Below, in pieces: positions 20,374 to 29,487 of a DNA stretch of 64,000 nt (position 1 is its first letter; each line of letters starts with the position of its first letter). The translations under genes and the position numbers were made by a program. The stretch covers positions 1-64,000 of the forward strand of contig CAIXCY010000060.1 of NCBI GenBank assembly GCA_903918045.1, given 5' to 3'. This stretch comes from an uncultured Bacteroidia bacterium. GTDB lineage: Bacteria > Bacteroidota > Bacteroidia > Bacteroidales > Prolixibacteraceae. The notes under the pieces were generated by a model that saw nothing but the letters and a program-made list of their open reading frames with translations, made no database searches and was not told the origin of the DNA.

Positions 20374-22578
20374 TCAAAGCATTAATAGTCCATTCTTGCG
20401 CAATAGCTTTACAGCCGGACTATTCCAAAAAAGCACAAAGTCTCCGCCCGTCTGCTCTACAAAGCTTTTCTCCAGTTCTCCAAAGGTGGTCTGCACCGAA
20501 TTACCAATTGAGAACTCTGGAATATGCGCTATTAACCATTTACCTTCTTCTTGTTTGAGCTGAATTTTAAGGTCAAGTTTTTTAGTTGGGAAAGTGAGTT
20601 CTCCCATCTCAAATGCCTGGTTTTTTTTCTTTCGTGTAAAGTATCGGATCGAAGGTGCTCCCCCCAGCCAACTAATTTTAAGGCTTGAGCTTATGCTTTC
20701 GAATGTTTCATAATTTATATGTTGACGGATCAGCCCTGGAACTAACGTAGTTCGCGGTACTTTGAAATCAAACCAGCCGGATAACGAAATGTCCAACCCG
20801 ATGCCATGCATATAATTGAACAGTGAATTTCTGAGCCCCTCACTGAATAAATCATGATCTGCCCCCATGGGATCACTATGAATCATGTCGTTATTGGCAA
20901 AGATGCCGGGGATAGTATTTTCAATTTTCACCTTGAATTGTGCAGGATTTAAGCCTATCGGGCTGTGGGCAGTCATTGCAAAATGGTGCCAGAATCCCGA
21001 CTGAACCACCCCTGCTTCAAATAATTGCCTGACAACTTCAAGTGAATCGATTGTTTCCTGGGTCGTTTGGGTTGGAAAACCATACATCAGATACGCATGA
21101 ACCATAATCCCTGCCCGTGTAAAATTATCGGCGACCCGGGCCACCTTCGCCACACTAACCCCTTTATTAATCATCCCAAGCAATCTGTCTGACGCTACTT
21201 CCAGTCCACCTGAAACGGCAATGCAACCAGATTCTCTAAGTAAATAACAGAGATCAAATGTAAAGCTTTGTTCAAAGCGAATATTTGTCCACCAAACGAC
21301 TGTAATTTTTCTTCTGATGATCTCCAAAGCCAAAGCTTTCAGAAGTGCAGGCGGGGCCGCTTCATCGACAAAATGGAACCCGATCTCTCCGGTTTGCCCG
21401 ATAATCTTTTCGATGCGGTCGCATAAAACTTGTACAGTATTGGGTTCATAGCGCCCAATATAATCAAGGGAAGTATCACAGAAGGTGCATCGGCCCCAAT
21501 AGCAGCCATGGGCAAGGGTAAGTTTATTCCACCTTCCGTCACTCCAGAGGCGGTGCATCGGATTTGCAATTTCGATTACAGAAAGATAGCTGTTCAGCAT
21601 AAAATCACTGTAATCAGGAGTGCCCGTTTCAACCTGTGAAAACTCTTTCTGAAGGGATCCATTCAGGTAAACAACCTTTCCCTCTTCGAGTGTAAAGGTC
21701 CTTTTCAGGTCCATTTTTTCCCGATTCCCCTCTAAGTATTCAATGAGATTCAGAAAAGGGGCCTCTCCATCGTCGAGTGTTATAAAATCAAGATAGTTAA
21801 ACACGCGTGGTTCGTTAAGAGAGCGCAACTCCGTATTCGCAAAACCTCCCCCCATAACAATTTTCATAGTCGGAAAATGTTTTTTGATCCATTGCCCGCA
21901 TTTTAGTGCACTATACAAATTTCCGGGAAAGGGAACTGAAAAAGCAATTAGTGTTGGCTTAACAGACACTATTTTTTCGTGTAGCAATCCAAGTAAAATC
22001 TTGTCAATAAAACTATTCGATGCCAGCAAAGTCTCATTGATCTCGTCGAAAGTAGCCGCTGACCGGCCTAACCGTTCAGCGTAGCGGCTAAAGCCAAAAT
22101 GTGGGTCGACGGCCTCTTTAATCAGATCAGAAAGATCTTCAAGATAAAGGGTTGCCAAATGCTTTGCTTTATCCTGAATTCCCATGGATCCAAAGGCCCA
22201 TTCCAGATCTTCAGAAGTGGCAAACCGTGAAGCTTCGGGTAAAAAATCGCAATTGCAAATCAGATGAGCCAGAGTTGCGTTCTTCCCCTGAAGCAATGCA
22301 ATAACCTGGTCAATAGTCTGAATATACCTTTCGCGCAAATTGAAAATGCGCATTGAATTAGCAGACATTTCAGGGTTTTTAATCGCTATTTCGCGAAAAA
22401 GATCAGTCAGTCCTTCAAATGAAAATAGTGCCAGGATTGTCTCAATCCCCAAATCACATTGCACCGAATGAATGGATTTGGTATTTAGAAATCCTTTCAG
22501 ATAAGCGGTTGCAGGATAGGGCGTATTTAGTTGTGTAAAAGGTGGCGTTATCAAGAGCACTTTTTGTCTCACAGGCAA
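20374..22578 (-). CDS. B12-binding-type radical SAM protein, function unknown
   Basis: 734 residues. The N-terminal 300 residues contain a cobalamin-binding-like fold (TLIAFSVPFPGN...IVMGGGFANTE...DFITLDDGEAPF) without a clear DxHxxG, so cobalamin may bind base-on elsewhere or not at all. The radical SAM barrel follows, with cluster ligands Cys359, Cys364 and Cys367 in GCYWGRCTFC. The spacing is CX4CX2C rather than the usual CX3CX2C, a variant I recall from some B12-radical SAM groups. A C-terminal region of about 200 residues has no motif I recognise. It is transcribed divergently from the MEMO-AMMECR1 gene with 60 bp between starts. No RiPP precursor or cell-wall context is visible, so the substrate is open. 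Confidence 0.85.
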   Translation of the reverse strand: MPVRQKVLLITPPFTQLNTPYPATAYLKGFLNTKSIHSVQCDLGIETILALFSFEGLTDLFREIAIKNPEMSANSMRIFNLRERYIQTIDQVIALLQGKNATLAHLICNCDFLPEASRFATSEDLEWAFGSMGIQDKAKHLATLYLEDLSDLIKEAVDPHFGFSRYAERLGRSAATFDEINETLLASNSFIDKILLGLLHEKIVSVKPTLIAFSVPFPGNLYSALKCGQWIKKHFPTMKIVMGGGFANTELRSLNEPRVFNYLDFITLDDGEAPFLNLIEYLEGNREKMDLKRTFTLEEGKVVYLNGSLQKEFSQVETGTPDYSDFMLNSYLSVIEIANPMHRLWSDGRWNKLTLAHGCYWGRCTFCDTSLDYIGRYEPNTVQVLCDRIEKIIGQTGEIGFHFVDEAAPPALLKALALEIIRRKITVVWWTNIRFEQSFTFDLCYLLRESGCIAVSGGLEVASDRLLGMINKGVSVAKVARVADNFTRAGIMVHAYLMYGFPTQTTQETIDSLEVVRQLFEAGVVQSGFWHHFAMTAHSPIGLNPAQFKVKIENTIPGIFANNDMIHSDPMGADHDLFSEGLRNSLFNYMHGIGLDISLSGWFDFKVPRTTLVPGLIRQHINYETFESISSSLKISWLGGAPSIRYFTRKKKNQAFEMGELTFPTKKLDLKIQLKQEEGKWLIAHIPEFSIGNSVQTTFGELEKSFVEQTGGDFVLFWNSPAVKLLRKNGLLML

Positions 22579-22638
22579 AGTTTTAGCGTTGTGTAAAGGT
22601 AATATTTATTCAAAATTGTTGTAACTTTATACCTAATA

Positions 22639-24147
22639 ATGCCTATAACCATGCAAGCAAATTATTTTAATATTGGAGTATTGGTATTTATTTGCGCATC
22701 TGTTTTCTCTCATCAACCAATTACAAACAGGAAGCCCTATGCTGCAGGAAGGTTTTACACCAATAAACCGGAAGAATTAAAAGCCCACCTCGAACAACTA
22801 TTCTCAAAGTCGGGTAGTCCAAAACAGGGTAACACACCTTTGGCAATTTTGGTACCCCATGCAGGTTATGTTTATAGCGGTGAGGTTGCAGCCAGCGCTT
22901 TTAATCAGGTTGATCCTAATCGTAAATTTGAACGGATCTTTATTATCGGATCGAGTCATACGACAAGTTTCCGGGGAGCATCGGTCTATTGCGACGGTCA
23001 TTTTGAAACCCCGTTAGGTACTGTCAAAGTGGACCTTGAACTTGCAAAAAAACTGGTCAGGGAGAATGAATTTCTTTCAGATAATCCTGATGCGCATCAG
23101 TTTGAGCATAGTCTCGAAGTTCAGCTTCCTTTCTTACAGCATCACATGCATACCGATTTTAAGATTGTTCCTGTTATCATTGGATCCTCAACTATTGAAA
23201 CATCCCAAAAACTGGCTAAAATATTCCAACCCTACCTGAATGAAAAGAACCTGTTTATTATTAGCAGTGATTTCTCCCATTATCCTGATTACAAAGACGC
23301 CTGCGCTGCAGACCTGGCTACAGCGGAAGCAATTAAAACCAATAAGGCTTCAAATTTAACCACTGTTCTTGAAGCCAATAAAAAGAGAAATATCCCAGGG
23401 CTCGCGACCAGCCTTTGCGGATGGAGTTCTGTCCTCACCTTACTTTATATGACGGAACAAATGGAGGAGATTTCAGTCGACCTGATTCAATACAAGAATT
23501 CGGGAGACTCACCTTATGGCGACAAACAACGGGTTGTGGGATACTGGGCCGCCACATTTACAAAATCAAAGAGCGGTGATCAGCGGAATGAATTCTCACT
23601 GAAAAGCGATGAAAAAAAGTTCCTTCTCAAATTAGCAAGGGAAACGCTCTCAGAATACCTCAGAAAAGGGAAGGTGCCAGAGGTAAATACCTCCGGACTG
23701 AGCGCTACCCTGAAAACGCCGTGCGGAGCTTTTGTCACCCTTAACAAAAACAATCACCTTCGGGGTTGTATTGGCCATTTTGAACCAAACCTTCCGCTCT
23801 GGAAAATAGTACAACAAATGGCTGTTGCTGCAGCTACCCTGGATTCTCGTTTTAATAAATTGGAATTAAGTGAATTGGGGGATATCGAGATCGAAATTTC
23901 AGTCTTAACCCCTTTGAAACGGATTAAATCAGTTGAAGAATTTATCCTTGGGAAAGACGGAATTTACATTAAAAAAGGGAGCTTATCCGGGACTTTCCTT
24001 CCTCAGGTTGCTACCCAGACTGGTTGGAGTAAGGAGGATTTTTTGGGACATTGTGCCAGAGACAAGGCAGGCCTTGGATGGGATGGGTGGAAAGCGGCTG
24101 ATTTATTTACCTATCAGGCACTCGTTTTTGGAGAGGGAGAAGAATAG
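22639..24147 (+). CDS. AmmeMemoRadiSam protein B-A fusion (MEMO1 + AMMECR1 domains) with signal-like N-terminus
   Basis: 502 residues. Residues about 9-25 are hydrophobic (FNIGVLVFICASVF), resembling an uncleaved or cleavable signal. The MEMO domain (about 30-305) keeps the metal ligands of human MEMO1: His74 in VPHAGYVYSG, His107 in IGSSHT and Cys260 in SLCGW, plus SSDFSHYPDY. The AMMECR1 domain (about 325-500) has TPCGAFVTLNKNNHLRGCIGHFEP. The two families and a radical SAM enzyme make the AmmeMemoRadiSam set, whose product is not established as far as I know; MEMO1 binds copper or iron. The fusion, the export-like leader and the membrane protein and radical SAM genes downstream (65 and 16 nt gaps) suggest one complex at the membrane or in the periplasm. 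Confidence 0.9.
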   Translation: MPITMQANYFNIGVLVFICASVFSHQPITNRKPYAAGRFYTNKPEELKAHLEQLFSKSGSPKQGNTPLAILVPHAGYVYSGEVAASAFNQVDPNRKFERIFIIGSSHTTSFRGASVYCDGHFETPLGTVKVDLELAKKLVRENEFLSDNPDAHQFEHSLEVQLPFLQHHMHTDFKIVPVIIGSSTIETSQKLAKIFQPYLNEKNLFIISSDFSHYPDYKDACAADLATAEAIKTNKASNLTTVLEANKKRNIPGLATSLCGWSSVLTLLYMTEQMEEISVDLIQYKNSGDSPYGDKQRVVGYWAATFTKSKSGDQRNEFSLKSDEKKFLLKLARETLSEYLRKGKVPEVNTSGLSATLKTPCGAFVTLNKNNHLRGCIGHFEPNLPLWKIVQQMAVAAATLDSRFNKLELSELGDIEIEISVLTPLKRIKSVEEFILGKDGIYIKKGSLSGTFLPQVATQTGWSKEDFLGHCARDKAGLGWDGWKAADLFTYQALVFGEGEE

Positions 24148-24212
24148 TCTCAATAAGACCACCCCCTTCAAAATAATTGGACCAACAGGAAGAATAGAAA
24201 CATTCGCATTCC

Positions 24213-26693
24213 ATGAAATCGGCTTATCCCCTGCTTCTGATCGCTAGTCTCGTTATATTTTTCTATCTTTTATCGGTTTCCTTCGTTCGAATTGGATTGT
24301 TAAGCAAGGTTTACCACCGGAAATTCTGGAATGTAAATTTGCTAATATCCTTTCTGACAGTAGGTGCCATCGGCTTGATGATGATCGTGAAAATTAATTA
24401 CAAGCTTGAACTCCCCTTTTATGATTCGTTATTGAGGTACCATGTCGATTTTGGAATCGTGATGATACTGATTGGTATGTTTCATTTATGGTGGCATCTC
24501 GATTATTACCACAAACTTTTTAAGATTGAAAAGTCTCCTGCAGCAGCTATCCCATTCTCTGTTCAGGATGACCTCAATGGCTTTGTATTGAAGATCTCGA
24601 TATTTTTATTGGGAGCCACCGCAATGGTAGCCCAAATCATCCTGCTGCGCGAATTTATGTCGGTCTTTAACGGAAATGAACTTGTCGTCGGATTAGTACT
24701 CGCTAACTGGATGGTATTAACGGGATTTGGCGCTATGCTGGGAAAGCAGGAGGTAAGAATTAAAAAAACATCGGGCTTGATTATTTCCGGACTTCTAATC
24801 CTGACTGTATTGCCTTTTATAACTACCTTCCTTATTAACTATTTAAAGAACATAATATTTCCCATTGGAGCAATGATTGATGTATTTCAAATCTTCCTCG
24901 CTTCCTTGTTGCTTTTGATCCCGTTTTGTGTGGTCAGTGGCTTCCTGTTCACATTTATCTCAGGTAGTTATTCTAATTCAAGAGGGAACAATGAAACCGG
25001 ATCTGTTTATGGATTTGAGTCGGTTGGAAGTATTACCGGAGGATTACTCACCGGTCTTATCTTCATTTTTTTGTTTTCCTCTGCAGAAAGCCTGCTGGTT
25101 CTGGCTGCAATAAATGGATTTGTAATCTTTCTGATTTGCCGCAATAAAGGGGTTCCCGCATTGGCAATGACCTCATTGGTGATCGGTTTTTCAGCGATTA
25201 CGCTGCTCTTCTTTCAGCCAGAAAAGATGATAAGACGGTGGGTGTACCCCAACCAGGTCATAGTAGTCTCGAAGGACACCCCTTATGGGAATATTGTGCG
25301 TACGCGACAAATGAATTTAACCAGTACCTATATCAACAACACCCCACTTTACGACTCCGAAAATTTCATGATCAATGAGGAGACCGTTCATTTTGCAATG
25401 ATTCAACACAATAACCCTTCAAATATACTTGTTGTTTCGGGAGACCTTTTAGGTCAAATCAGGGAATTAATGAAGTACAATCCGGAATCAATTGACTGTG
25501 TGGAGGAGAATCGCTGGTTGCTGGCACTTTCAGGTGATTCTCTGAGCAAAATAGAGTCCCGGAAGATCCGGATATATTCGAAGGACCCCATCCGTTTTAT
25601 CCGAAATACCCTAAAGATTTTTGATATAGCCCTTTTAAATCTTCCTGCCCCCTCCTCCCTTCAGAATAATCGCTTTTATACACTTGAGTTTTTCACCCTT
25701 CTGAAAAGAAAACTTTCCCCCGGTGCAGTGCTCTGTTTTGGATTGCCTGCACCTGTAAACTATATGAATAAGGAGGCCGTTGCTCTTACCTCAACGCTTT
25801 TTATGACGTTGAAAAGGGTGTTTCAAAACGTAGTTATTATTCCTGGGGAGAAAAACTATTTCATCGCTTCTGACAATAAGCTCACCTATGAGATCGCAAC
25901 GGCTATTCACCAACGAGGGATCAGCAACCGATATGTCAATCCTGACTATTTTGATAATGATTTGCTTAAAAGTCGCGGGGAATCAATTCTGTCAGCTTTA
26001 AGCCCTGATGTCGAAATCAACCGGAACTTAAGACCTGTTTTGTACCAAGATGAAATGGATTACTGGTTAAGTCATTTCAAAGGAAAATTCTGGCTTATGG
26101 CATTTCTTGCCGGTATGCTGGCTATTGTCATTTTTATCTCAGGCAACACACCTTCGAAAATCATGTTTGTAACTGGATTTTCGGCAACAGGACTCGAAAT
26201 ACTTTTACTCTTCGGCATACAGGTTTATTTTGGAACGATTTATCTGCTAACCAGTTTTGTATTTACCGGTTTTATGGCTGGATTGGCCTTTGGATCTTTC
26301 AGAGGGAAATCTATAAAAACCATTTCCGAAAGTAAATATCTGTATATTAATCAATTGTTAATTGGATTTCTGGCTGCCGGGACTGCTTTTCTCCTTTTTG
26401 CGCCTGGAATCCTAAATTTTGCGCCGGCAATTGTTTACCTTTTGTATTTATCGGTAATTGTCTCAATCGGGACTATTACCGGTCTCCAGTATACAAGGGT
26501 ATCGATCTGCCAGACAGGCAGCTACGCTAATATTACCGGGTGGACCTATAGTTACGATTTATATGGTTCTGCATTCGGGGCTCTGGTTGTTACGCTATAT
26601 TTGATTCCAAATATGGGGATTGTCACAACAGCAATTATCCTTGCTTTTTGCAACATCTTATATGGAATTTATTTAACTTTAAAGGGATATTAA
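24213..26693 (+). CDS. Polytopic membrane protein with spermidine-synthase-like domain
   Basis: 826 residues. Residues 1-100 hold three membrane helices with His77, His91 and His95 (YHVDF...FHLWWHLDYY); H77 and H91 are 14 apart, as in haem-binding helices of b-type cytochromes. Residues about 110-340 form a membrane domain like that of fused spermidine synthase/transporter proteins (MVAQIILLREFMSVFNGNELVVGLVLANWM, GSVYGFESVGSITGG). Residues about 350-600 resemble an aminopropyltransferase (TPYGNIVRTRQM..., ILVVSGDLLGQIRELMKY), but the SAM-binding GGGDG is degenerate. Seven or so helices follow (about 620-826). The function is unknown. Its place between the MEMO-AMMECR1 and radical SAM genes makes it a likely membrane partner of that system. 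Confidence 0.8.
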   Translation: MKSAYPLLLIASLVIFFYLLSVSFVRIGLLSKVYHRKFWNVNLLISFLTVGAIGLMMIVKINYKLELPFYDSLLRYHVDFGIVMILIGMFHLWWHLDYYHKLFKIEKSPAAAIPFSVQDDLNGFVLKISIFLLGATAMVAQIILLREFMSVFNGNELVVGLVLANWMVLTGFGAMLGKQEVRIKKTSGLIISGLLILTVLPFITTFLINYLKNIIFPIGAMIDVFQIFLASLLLLIPFCVVSGFLFTFISGSYSNSRGNNETGSVYGFESVGSITGGLLTGLIFIFLFSSAESLLVLAAINGFVIFLICRNKGVPALAMTSLVIGFSAITLLFFQPEKMIRRWVYPNQVIVVSKDTPYGNIVRTRQMNLTSTYINNTPLYDSENFMINEETVHFAMIQHNNPSNILVVSGDLLGQIRELMKYNPESIDCVEENRWLLALSGDSLSKIESRKIRIYSKDPIRFIRNTLKIFDIALLNLPAPSSLQNNRFYTLEFFTLLKRKLSPGAVLCFGLPAPVNYMNKEAVALTSTLFMTLKRVFQNVVIIPGEKNYFIASDNKLTYEIATAIHQRGISNRYVNPDYFDNDLLKSRGESILSALSPDVEINRNLRPVLYQDEMDYWLSHFKGKFWLMAFLAGMLAIVIFISGNTPSKIMFVTGFSATGLEILLLFGIQVYFGTIYLLTSFVFTGFMAGLAFGSFRGKSIKTISESKYLYINQLLIGFLAAGTAFLLFAPGILNFAPAIVYLLYLSVIVSIGTITGLQYTRVSICQTGSYANITGWTYSYDLYGSAFGALVVTLYLIPNMGIVTTAIILAFCNILYGIYLTLKGY

Positions 26694-26709
26694 ACCCATC
26701 AATCTTAAT

Positions 26710-27837
26710 ATGTCAAATCAGGAAATGAACAAGCGTGAATTTCTGAAACAGGGTTTGGCAGCAACAAGCGCTATAACCTGTTCCCCGTTGATGAGCCTTG
26801 CCGGTGGGGAGAGCGAAAAGCTCTGGAAATGGAGTAAGGAGGGATTATTTTGGTCCCCAACCCCCAGAGGGACAAAGTGCCTGATATGCCCTAACGAATG
26901 TGTGATAAAGGAGGGGGAATCGGGACTTTGTCATAACCGGGTAAACCACCAGGGGGTTTTATATTCAATAGCCTACGGAAACCCCTGCGCCGTAAATATC
27001 GATCCGATAGAGAAAAAACCATTTAACCATTTTTTGCCTGGATCAAAAGCCTTTTCAATTGGAACTGCAGGGTGCAATCTTGCCTGTATGAACTGTCAAA
27101 ACTGGACAATCTCGCAGACCAGTCCAAAAGAGACCCGGAACTATGATTTAATGCCCGATAAACTAATTACAGAAACAATTGCAAATAATTGTCAATCTAT
27201 AGCTTACACCTATTCAGAACCGATTTCATTCTATGAATACACGTTTGACTCAGCCAAACTGGCAAGGGAGCATGGGATTAAAAATGTGCTTGTGACAGCG
27301 GGGTATATCAATGAAGAGCCACTTCGCAATCTCTGCAAATATATTGATGCTGCAAGAGTTGACCTCAAATCGTTCAGTAATGATATTTATATGAAATTGA
27401 GTGCCGGATCGTTACAGCCCGTATTAAACACACTGAAAATTTTGGCCGATGCCGGTGTTTGGCTGGAAGTTGTCAACCTGATTGTCCCCGGATGGACAGA
27501 CGATCCGGAGATGATTAAAAGGATGTGTAACTGGCTGTCAAAAAACGGACTGGCGAACTATCCGCTTCACTTTGACCGTTTTCATCCTGAATATAAACTT
27601 ACACAGTTATCAGCCACTCCGATTGGTGTACTTACGATGGCACGTGAGATTGCAATTTCGGAAGGGATAAAATATGTTTATATTGGCAATGTTCCTGGCC
27701 TTGATGCACAAAACACCTATTGCCCTAAATGCCATGATTTAGTGGTTGAGAGACACGGATTTTCGGTACTTCAAAAAAACCTTGTCAAAGGTTGTTGCTC
27801 TAAATGCGGTGAAAAATTGCCGGGTATCTGGCAATAA
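26710..27837 (+). CDS. amrS: AmmeMemoRadiSam system radical SAM enzyme with Tat-like leader
   Basis: 375 residues. The N-terminus NKREFLKQGLAATSAIT resembles a twin-arginine leader (KR in place of RR). Then come an extra Cys set (CLICPNEC...GLC, about residues 57-77) and the radical SAM motif GCNLACMNCQNW (CX3CX2C), with PFNHFLPGSKAFSIGT before it as in AmrS and PflA-type proteins. The C-terminus has CPKC...CCSKCG, a zinc-ribbon or further cluster site (about 338-371). The MEMO-AMMECR1 fusion is two genes upstream, supporting the call. If the leader works, the folded Fe-S enzyme would be exported or membrane-anchored, which is unusual for a radical SAM enzyme because its reductant is normally cytoplasmic. 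Confidence 0.9.
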   Translation: MSNQEMNKREFLKQGLAATSAITCSPLMSLAGGESEKLWKWSKEGLFWSPTPRGTKCLICPNECVIKEGESGLCHNRVNHQGVLYSIAYGNPCAVNIDPIEKKPFNHFLPGSKAFSIGTAGCNLACMNCQNWTISQTSPKETRNYDLMPDKLITETIANNCQSIAYTYSEPISFYEYTFDSAKLAREHGIKNVLVTAGYINEEPLRNLCKYIDAARVDLKSFSNDIYMKLSAGSLQPVLNTLKILADAGVWLEVVNLIVPGWTDDPEMIKRMCNWLSKNGLANYPLHFDRFHPEYKLTQLSATPIGVLTMAREIAISEGIKYVYIGNVPGLDAQNTYCPKCHDLVVERHGFSVLQKNLVKGCCSKCGEKLPGIWQ

Positions 27838-28360: not shown

Positions 28361-28394
28361 TTGGAATCCAAGCTAACAAAATATTGTAACTTTG
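28361..28394 (+). promoter_or_regulatory. Bacteroidota promoter of the aroB-aroA operon
   Basis: TTG (28361-28363), a 23-bp spacer, then TAACTTTG (28387-28394), matching TAnnTTTG, 19 bp before the aroB ATG. Confidence 0.55.
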
Positions 28395-28413
28395 CCCCAA
28401 ATAAAACACTAAA

Positions 28414-29487
28414 ATGAATAATTATCCGACATACCACGCCTCAATAATCGTCACAAGCGAGATTGAAGTTGAATTGGGAAAGATCCTTTCACGCTATCCC
28501 AAAGATAAGCTATTTCTTGTCACAGAAACTAATTGTGACCTATTTTGTCTTCCCCTTATTCACAAAACAATCGGTTTTGAGCACCTGAAAAAGGTTGTAA
28601 TCCCTGCAGGGGAGGAGAATAAAAAACTCACTTCAGTTGAGAAAATCTGGCTTTTTTTAAGTCAGAGTGGTGCAGACCGTAAATCACTTGTCGTAAATCT
28701 GGGGGGAGGAATGCTAACCGATCTTGGCAGTTTTGCTGCCTCAACCTTCAAAAGGGGGATGGATTTTGTGAATATTCCAACAACGCTTTTGTCGCAGGTT
28801 GACGCCTCTGTGGGTGGAAAAACCGGATTCAATTTCAATGGTTTAAAAAATGAAATTGGGGTGATAAATCAACCGATGAGCGTACTGATCGACACAAGAT
28901 TCCTTCAGAGTATTGATATTCCGAATTTAATTTCGGGTTATGCTGAAATGGTCAAACATGGTCTGATCTATTCGAAGGAACATTTGGAAGAGGTTCGTAA
29001 TTTCGATTCAAAAAATCCTGACCTAAATATCCTTCGCGGAATAATTGCCCGGTCAGTGGCCATTAAAGATTCGTTTGTATTCCGCGATCCCAACGAAAAC
29101 AATATCCGCAAGGCTCTTAATTTCGGACATACAATTGGACATGCCTTTGAAAGTTTCGCCATGGAAACCGATAAACCCTTACTTCACGGTTATGCCGTGG
29201 CCTATGGGATGATAGCCGAACTTTATCTCTCGCATAAAATATGTGATCTGCCAATGGCAACCGTTACAGAGCTAACAGACTGGCTTATTGATGTCTATGG
29301 GAGATATTCAATAGCCGAAAGTTCCTTTGAGTCGCTCTACCAATTGATGACACACGATAAGAAGAACGAAGGAAAACGGGTGAATTTTACCCTTATTCCC
29401 TACATCGGCGAAGTTGCAATCAATCAAAATTGCGATAAAAACCTTGTGTTCGAGGCTTTGGATTACTTTAAAAAAATCAATCGTTGA
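28414..29487 (+). CDS. aroB: 3-dehydroquinate synthase
   Basis: 357 residues, usual family length. NAD-binding GGGMLTDLGSFAASTFKRG, the substrate loop IPTTLLSQVDASVGGKTGFN, and zinc ligands in SGYAEMVKHGLI and the NFGHTIGHAFE motif are all present. The enzyme converts DAHP to 3-dehydroquinate, step two of the shikimate pathway, in the cytoplasm. aroA follows 9 nt later, so they form an operon. Confidence 0.96.
   Translation: MNNYPTYHASIIVTSEIEVELGKILSRYPKDKLFLVTETNCDLFCLPLIHKTIGFEHLKKVVIPAGEENKKLTSVEKIWLFLSQSGADRKSLVVNLGGGMLTDLGSFAASTFKRGMDFVNIPTTLLSQVDASVGGKTGFNFNGLKNEIGVINQPMSVLIDTRFLQSIDIPNLISGYAEMVKHGLIYSKEHLEEVRNFDSKNPDLNILRGIIARSVAIKDSFVFRDPNENNIRKALNFGHTIGHAFESFAMETDKPLLHGYAVAYGMIAELYLSHKICDLPMATVTELTDWLIDVYGRYSIAESSFESLYQLMTHDKKNEGKRVNFTLIPYIGEVAINQNCDKNLVFEALDYFKKINR

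Follow-up and report, generated by a model that had tools for sequence, protein, structure and literature searches.

Can a radical S-adenosylmethionine (SAM) enzyme do its work outside the cytoplasm? Such enzymes depend on SAM and low-potential electrons and are for that reason regarded as cytoplasmic, and the question is raised by a locus in the first 64,000 nucleotides (hereafter the window) of contig CAIXCY010000060.1 (contig C60 of the 5.36-Mb source genome, G000) of an uncultured Prolixibacteraceae bacterium (assembly GCA_903918045.1). Three genes form a unit at 22639-27837 on the + strand, to which all features discussed below belong unless stated otherwise: a MEMO-AMMECR1 fusion (22639..24147, 502 aa), a polytopic membrane protein for which we use the name MEM (24213..26693, 826 aa) and the radical SAM enzyme AmrS (26710..27837, 375 aa). 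A preliminary description of this DNA had read the trio as an AmmeMemoRadiSam system working at the membrane or in the periplasm, and the list of open reading frames (ORFs) bears out its gene order, its common strand and its intergenic gaps of 65 and 16 nt. Judging from comparison with relatives, we consider it probable that the operon is an exported, membrane-bound AmmeMemoRadiSam variant.

The AmrS of the window scores 369 bits against TIGR04337 (cut-off 220), has its CX3CX2C codons at 27073-27096 and is the single AmrS above cut-off in its genome; the closest named relative by AmrS is a Prolixibacteraceae (Bacteroidota) metagenome-assembled genome (L036/L113, 90% identity). We compared it within a family set of 100 genomes, its own included, 69 of which hold an AmrS above cut-off. 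Outside the window there were 81 such places, 78 of which were fetched together with two fragments as 80 stretches, with three partial places (G025:C295, G020:C295 and G096) left out; 80 AmrS were scored, the window's own counted. A wider set consists of the best 80 of at least 449 confirmed candidates of a wide search with MEM, and the two sets overlap, since some named records stem from organisms that are also in the family set (L113 = L036).

Two kinds of AmrS can be told apart in the family set. The leader type, 31 of 80 with the window counted, is 54-90% identical to the window's AmrS; the strict motif [KR]R-x-F-L/I-K occurs in 27 of these and MEM stands at the locus in 25. In contrast, the other 49, which are 36-44% identical to the window's, never have the motif, MEM or a fusion nearby (0/49 for each), and a stand-alone MEMO is found in 11 of their loci. 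Both kinds can occur in one genome, e.g. G005, G006 and G027. When a start codon just upstream is demanded in addition to the strict motif, the counts are 27/31 for the family leader type, 58/66 in the wider set and 0/49 for the other type. In a tree of 149 distinct AmrS, the leader kind forms one clade of 86 (Shimodaira-Hasegawa-like approximate likelihood ratio test, SH-aLRT, 99), and all 77 strict-motif sequences fall inside it. This comparison shows that the putative leader is not a local accident and belongs to a distinct clade. The clade also contains the variants KRQFMK (L126), RRTFIS (L133), RRRFAT (L136), RRRFSK (L145) and TREFLK (L043), a motif on one piece of a broken AmrS gene (L159) and three leaderless members (L033, L055 and L056). 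Its sister group is leaderless AmrS, which lies in tandem behind a leadered AmrS at L138 (11550-12581) and L146 (11558-12583). As a side observation, leader-type AmrS is split into two overlapping frames beside an intact MEM frame at L110 (5638-6781) and L159 (3667-4832).

The window's leader, MNKREFLKQGLAATSAITCSPLMSLAGG, is listed as a Tat-like (twin-arginine translocation) feature at 26710..26802 (MSNQEMNKREFLKQGLAATSAITCSPLMSLA), with the start at 26710 or 26725. Leaders were judged here by motif and hydropathy. The Tat-like KREFLKQG of the preliminary description is present and, by the counts given above, beyond chance, with KR instead of the canonical RR in its motif NKREFLK. The first basic residue is K in 23 of the 27 family and 56 of the 58 wider strict motifs; the two Acidobacteriota and the three archaeal AmrS members all have R there. 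The second, R9, is invariant (25/25) in alignment A2, which holds 25 of the 31 family leader-type AmrS (L032, L033, L043, L055, L056 and L110 were left out). The leader is thus conserved as protein, which argues against a start codon downstream of it, the alternative considered earlier. The h-region of the AmrS leaders has a median of 1.55 (n=72, none above 2.2), compared with 2.53 for the MEMO leaders (n=75). In the accessible part of PMC1182353, a weaker h-region is given as a difference of Tat from Sec signals, and K is described as tolerated for the first Arg of the Tat motif, with TtrB as a natural KR case. Hence, the weak h-region of AmrS beside the stronger one of MEMO is as expected for a Tat signal beside a Sec signal. 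A lipobox on AmrS was tried as a candidate and rejected, as its Cys is not conserved.

TatC is present in the source genome, and of 15 other hosts 14 have it as well. The putatively archaeal G348 and G349 (loci L186 and L189) each have a single TatC match, located on the opposite strand next to the operon: in L189 it follows the operon immediately, in L186 after about 1.1 kb. The ORF beside this tatC we take to be tatA-like, recognised by FGPKKLPQLAR. In the tree of 149, the archaeal AmrS branch from among the bacterial sequences, which suggests gene transfer, the contigs being putatively archaeal.

The fusion partner likewise carries a leader. It matches PF01875 (Memo, 220.2 bits), PF01871 (AMMECR1, 168 bits), TIGR04336 (249.7 bits, cut-off 26) and TIGR04335 (159.8 bits, cut-off 99), all above cut-off, with the Memo domain at about 22735-23550 and the AMMECR1 domain at about 23626-24129. 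The hydrophobic N-terminal leader noticed before is present as a Sec-like stretch, MQANYFNIGVLVFICASVFSHQP..., at 22651..22725, and the ATG at 22651 is the more likely start over 22639, as read by eye from relatives. A strong hydrophobic stretch (maximum mean hydropathy of at least 1.8) was found in 69 of 75 readable fusion leaders, the six weak ones being L032, L033, L056, L133 (start choice), L153 and L163. The comparison of N-termini across homologues, which had been proposed as a check, hence gives the strict motif in 77 of the 86 clade AmrS and Sec-like leaders in 69 of 75 fusions. Among 89 rows, the MEMO metal ligands H74, H107 and C260 are kept in 85, 87 and 87, respectively, and the remainder are gaps; they are the equivalents of the iron ligands H49, H81 and C244 named for human MEMO1 in the accessible part of PMC11081632.

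The third component, the 826-residue polytopic protein, proved to be just that, and it can now be given a domain: it matches PF01564 (Spermine_synth) with 54.8 bits (cut-off 22.9). Its predicted model (predicted local distance difference test, pLDDT, 89.2) has 3 + 7 helices, a Rossmann-type domain and then 7 helices. The spermidine-synthase-like (SpeE-like) domain covers residues 333-625 (25209..26087) and is matched by the profiles of 3anx/1uir (E about 2e-25) and, in Foldseek, by 1uir (5.2e-11). We read the topology from loop charges, with helix ends set by hand from the model; the charges alternate and place the SpeE-like domain outside, so that it is predicted to face outward, with the side less sure than the rest. 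In alignment A3, made up of the window and 66 of the 80 loci of the wide MEM search, the domain keeps E389, E390, H393 and D458 in 67/67 and E431 in 64/67. The position of N476, presumably that of the catalytic Asp of spermidine synthases, is Asn in 54/67 and Asp in 5/67. The pattern fits a degenerate, nucleoside-binding domain without aminopropyl transfer.

Whether this protein stays next to AmrS had been asked at the outset, and to a large extent it does. Of the 100 family genomes, 25 have a full-length MEM, and it always (25/25) lies beside a leader-clade AmrS, which is interrupted in L110; four more family genomes have a shorter SpeE-like protein. Across the phylum, MEM is rare, being found at E 1e-60 in 5 of 247 genomes, the window's own included. 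Hosts in culture, such as Mangrovibacterium or Gaoshiqia, also carry the operon (L149, L151 and L137). In the wider set, AmrS follows in 61 of the 69 MEM loci with at least 1.5 kb downstream; in five of the remaining eight, a leadered AmrS lies at another place in the genome, and L148 has a leaderless copy and otherwise only AmrS fragments. At L032, L035, L043, L044, L045, L047 and L053, the operon includes a single gene that looks foreign. Much the same gene occupies the exact MEM place in L032 (4265-5143) and L035 (7815-8702) and, by eye, we would call it Bro-like; those at L043 (3160-3861), L045 (6951-7499), L044 (3337-3876), L047 (10370-10777) and L053 (5300-5991) look ORF6N-like, four-helix-bundle-like or HigBA-like by eye.

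Leader and MEM may also be lost together. Six family leader-type loci lack MEM, which is not found elsewhere in those genomes either. The AmrS leader is lost in three of these six (L033, L055 and L056) as opposed to 0/25 with MEM (Fisher p=0.0044, kinship ignored), and three of the six have a weak MEMO leader (L032, L033 and L056). The preliminary description had counted leaderless homologues with the same neighbours against its own reading. On this point the outcome is divided: the three leaderless members are all without MEM, but L138 and L146 have MEM together with the second, leaderless AmrS behind the leadered one.

MEM exists in a long form (42 of 80 loci) and a short form (38 of 80), and only the long form, to which the window's belongs, has an N-terminal three-helix domain (24213..24548) with conserved His. 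With the window added to the 42 long forms, H91 is conserved in 43/43, H77 in 42/43, H95 in 40/43 and H35 in 38/43. The same domain appears as a separate ORF just before the short MEM in L129, L161 and L182 (E 8e-26 or better), and L186 and L189 have a different small His-pair ORF between MEM and AmrS. In a loose scan, the other 33 of the 38 short-MEM loci gave no convincing replacement of the domain, several of their contigs ending early; two ORFs flagged in L136 and one in L181 are unrelated by eye. Alignment A4 comprises the window, 36 of the 42 long forms and the three separate ORFs. Pfam matches of 40 domain rows, all below threshold, were DUF4405 (21 rows at E of 5 or less, best 4.4e-4), Ni_hydr_CYTB (13), Ferric_reduct (10) and Cytochrom_B561 (6), as well as CrgA (15), Peptidase_U4 (12) and VKOR (9); the best single E-value was that of Oxidored_q2 (3e-5). 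The window's own domain gave no match to the heme families in Pfam. The Pfam matches thus lean towards membrane b-cytochrome families, mixed and sub-threshold as they are. A proven cytochrome was tried as a label for the domain and dropped, a PDB profile search being at chance level (E 0.3 and 0.37) and phmmer giving none, and a fold search with the domain returned nothing significant (best E 2.4).

From these parts a mechanism can be sketched. AmrS would most plausibly fold and take up its iron-sulfur (Fe-S) clusters inside the cell, be moved out in the folded state by Tat, and then, on the outer face of the membrane, come together with the fusion, itself exported by Sec, and with the domain of MEM that is predicted to face outward. 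The non-catalytic SpeE-like domain of MEM might conceivably bind SAM or a SAM product and carry it through the membrane; electrons of the quinone pool might, in the long form, pass through the His-pair domain to AmrS. MEM would be the natural candidate for supplying the exported AmrS with SAM and, in the long form, with electrons. As substrate, a membrane lipid or an envelope peptide would fit. Burroughs et al. (2019) reportedly linked the contexts of Memo with the modification of nucleobases and isoprenoids, and an isoprenoid lipid would suit a system at the outer face. The full proposal, i.e. a radical SAM enzyme that is exported folded by Tat, works outside the cytoplasm with SAM supplied by a MEM with an outward SpeE-like domain, is reduced from the quinone pool through a cytochrome-like domain, and has spread in Bacteroidota, Ignavibacteria and Acidobacteriota and been passed to DPANN archaea, is tentative; we see it as a serious possibility somewhat short of an even chance.

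A number of observations weigh against an exported, membrane-bound system. The window's NKREFLK lacks the two consecutive Arg of (S/T)RRxFLK, which some relatives have, and KR is found in most clade members as in the window. When 291 kb of the own genome were scanned loosely, 12 Tat candidates came up, of which the four judged clear are all RR; the KR candidates other than AmrS were judged to resemble Sec leaders or membrane helices. No TatC match was obtained in G350, the remaining archaeal host, whose AmrS has an RR leader. The loops flanking the SpeE-like domain are poor in charge (0.90 and 0.37 K/R per sequence), the 38 short MEM proteins lack the His-pair domain, and no member's cytochrome-like domain matches any family above threshold. 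AmrS retains its leader without MEM at L032, L035 and L040, and the co-loss, once kinship is respected, comes down to two or three contrasts, nearly all in the same direction, for which a sign test can reach no significance. MEM also occurs without an exported AmrS at L179 (7977-10121) and L183 (7968-10109), where the surrounding 8 kb or so hold neither AmrS nor MEMO and the genome's only AmrS is leaderless. Moreover, we know of no availability of SAM or low-potential electrons outside the cell. Damage by oxygen outside may matter little, since AMMECR1 heads a table of anaerobe markers (values 3.38 and 50.66) in the accessible part of PMC13386939.

Some of these points would suit an AmrS that stays in the cytoplasm, where SAM and reductant are at hand, and whose KR-x-FLK extension is a tail binding the membrane, MEM or the fusion, only MEMO-AMMECR1 being exported or anchored. 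The KR of the window among RR candidates of its own genome speaks for this, and a loose lipobox pattern in 18 of 75 fusion leaders means that a location at the membrane could be due to the fusion by itself. However, the extension resembles a whole leader with basic pair and weak h-region, the motif becomes canonical RR in distant members, tatC and tatA adjoin the operon in two archaea, and the fused partner is predicted outside, so that the membrane would separate the two; we therefore regard a cytoplasmic AmrS as unlikely. If AmrS is exported, it could act before export, or outside it could carry electrons as an Fe-S protein or be a structural partner, without radical SAM chemistry there. This would dispense with a SAM source outside the cell, and 31 of the 93 positions conserved in leaderless AmrS drop below 90% in the leader type. 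Nevertheless, 62 of the 93 are kept, and among rows of at least 48% identity the radical SAM cysteines C122, C126 and C129 are found in 95/95, the further C57, C60, C64, C74, C338, C341, C363 and C366 in 94/95 and E170 in 91/95, which makes an exported AmrS without radical SAM chemistry outside improbable. MEM, for its part, could be an ordinary polyamine aminopropyltransferase or transporter that is in the operon by chance, as its PF01564 match and the spermidine synthases as nearest solved structures might suggest. But the catalytic Asp is mostly replaced, the score against PRK03612 is low (114.1 bits, cut-off 472), and AmrS is its constant companion with two exceptions (L179 and L183), so that we give this explanation very little credence.

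We thus return to the exported, membrane-bound system. Comparison shows a distinct AmrS clade with putative leaders together with a Sec-like, sometimes lipoprotein-like, fusion and a dedicated MEM, and the conserved leaders and the constant polytopic partner support the placement at the membrane or in the periplasm that had been proposed at first. The electron-donor role named along with it is suggested at most: the matches of the His-pair domain are sub-threshold, mixed and without a fold match, and a candidate replacement is found at only 5 of the 38 short-MEM loci, so that electron transfer stays conjectural. Transport of SAM by MEM is something we infer.

Around the operon, a 27-nt stretch before the fusion gene (22613-22639) recurs with 78% likeness at 28378-28404, before the gene at 28414, and includes a possible promoter element, TTGTAACTTTATACC, at 22619..22633. 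With up to three mismatches, the element's pattern has five matches in the window where 2.24 are expected, and 6 of 100 shuffles reach five; a scan for promoters and terminators found no more sites than in shuffles. The repeated stretch may be a Bacteroidota-type promoter. The divergent neighbour (20374-22578, - strand) is a radical SAM protein that falls below cut-off for the models of PhpK-type P-methyltransferases and of C-methyltransferases of ribosomally synthesized and post-translationally modified peptides (RiPPs).

MEMO and AMMECR1 are disease-linked protein families in human, and the locus offers a new handle on them, as their joint work may be done by exported partners at the membrane. 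If the proposal is true, radical SAM chemistry is not confined to the cytoplasm, an unusual consequence should export and activity of AmrS both be real, and a conserved clade of exported enzymes that have a membrane partner of their own makes such chemistry directly testable. The literature that we searched contained no exported radical SAM enzyme and no joint reaction of MEMO, AMMECR1 and AmrS. Nor did it describe an exported AmmeMemoRadiSam variant, but it did not include Burroughs et al. (2019), which the accessible part of PMC7159879 cites for 'Memo-Ammecr1 systems'.

Each component has a known counterpart from which it departs. Like DUF4405 and the b-type cytochromes of membranes, the N-terminal domain of MEM has helices that carry a pair of conserved His at a distance of 14 residues, whereas its matches are sub-threshold in some members and missing for the window's own, with no significant fold match. 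AmrS resembles Tat-exported Fe-S proteins in the shape of its leader and as a folded metalloprotein cargo, but most members have KR. With the spermidine synthases (PF01564; 1uir, 3anx), MEM shares the fold and nucleoside-site residues, although its domain sits between helix bundles, is predicted to lie outside and mostly has Asn for the catalytic Asp. The membrane SpeE-like proteins of PRK03612 and of NF037959 (fused MFS, major facilitator superfamily, and spermidine synthase) combine helices and a SpeE-like domain as MEM does; MEM falls below both cut-offs (18.1 of 40 bits for NF037959) and has a further bundle of helices at its C-terminus as well as, in the long form, the N-terminal domain. 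Finally, leaderless AmmeMemoRadiSam comprises the same three families, all above cut-off here and with metal and cluster ligands kept, while the window adds putative leaders on both AmrS and the fused MEMO-AMMECR1 and an extra membrane partner, a combination seen with none of the 49 other-type AmrS.

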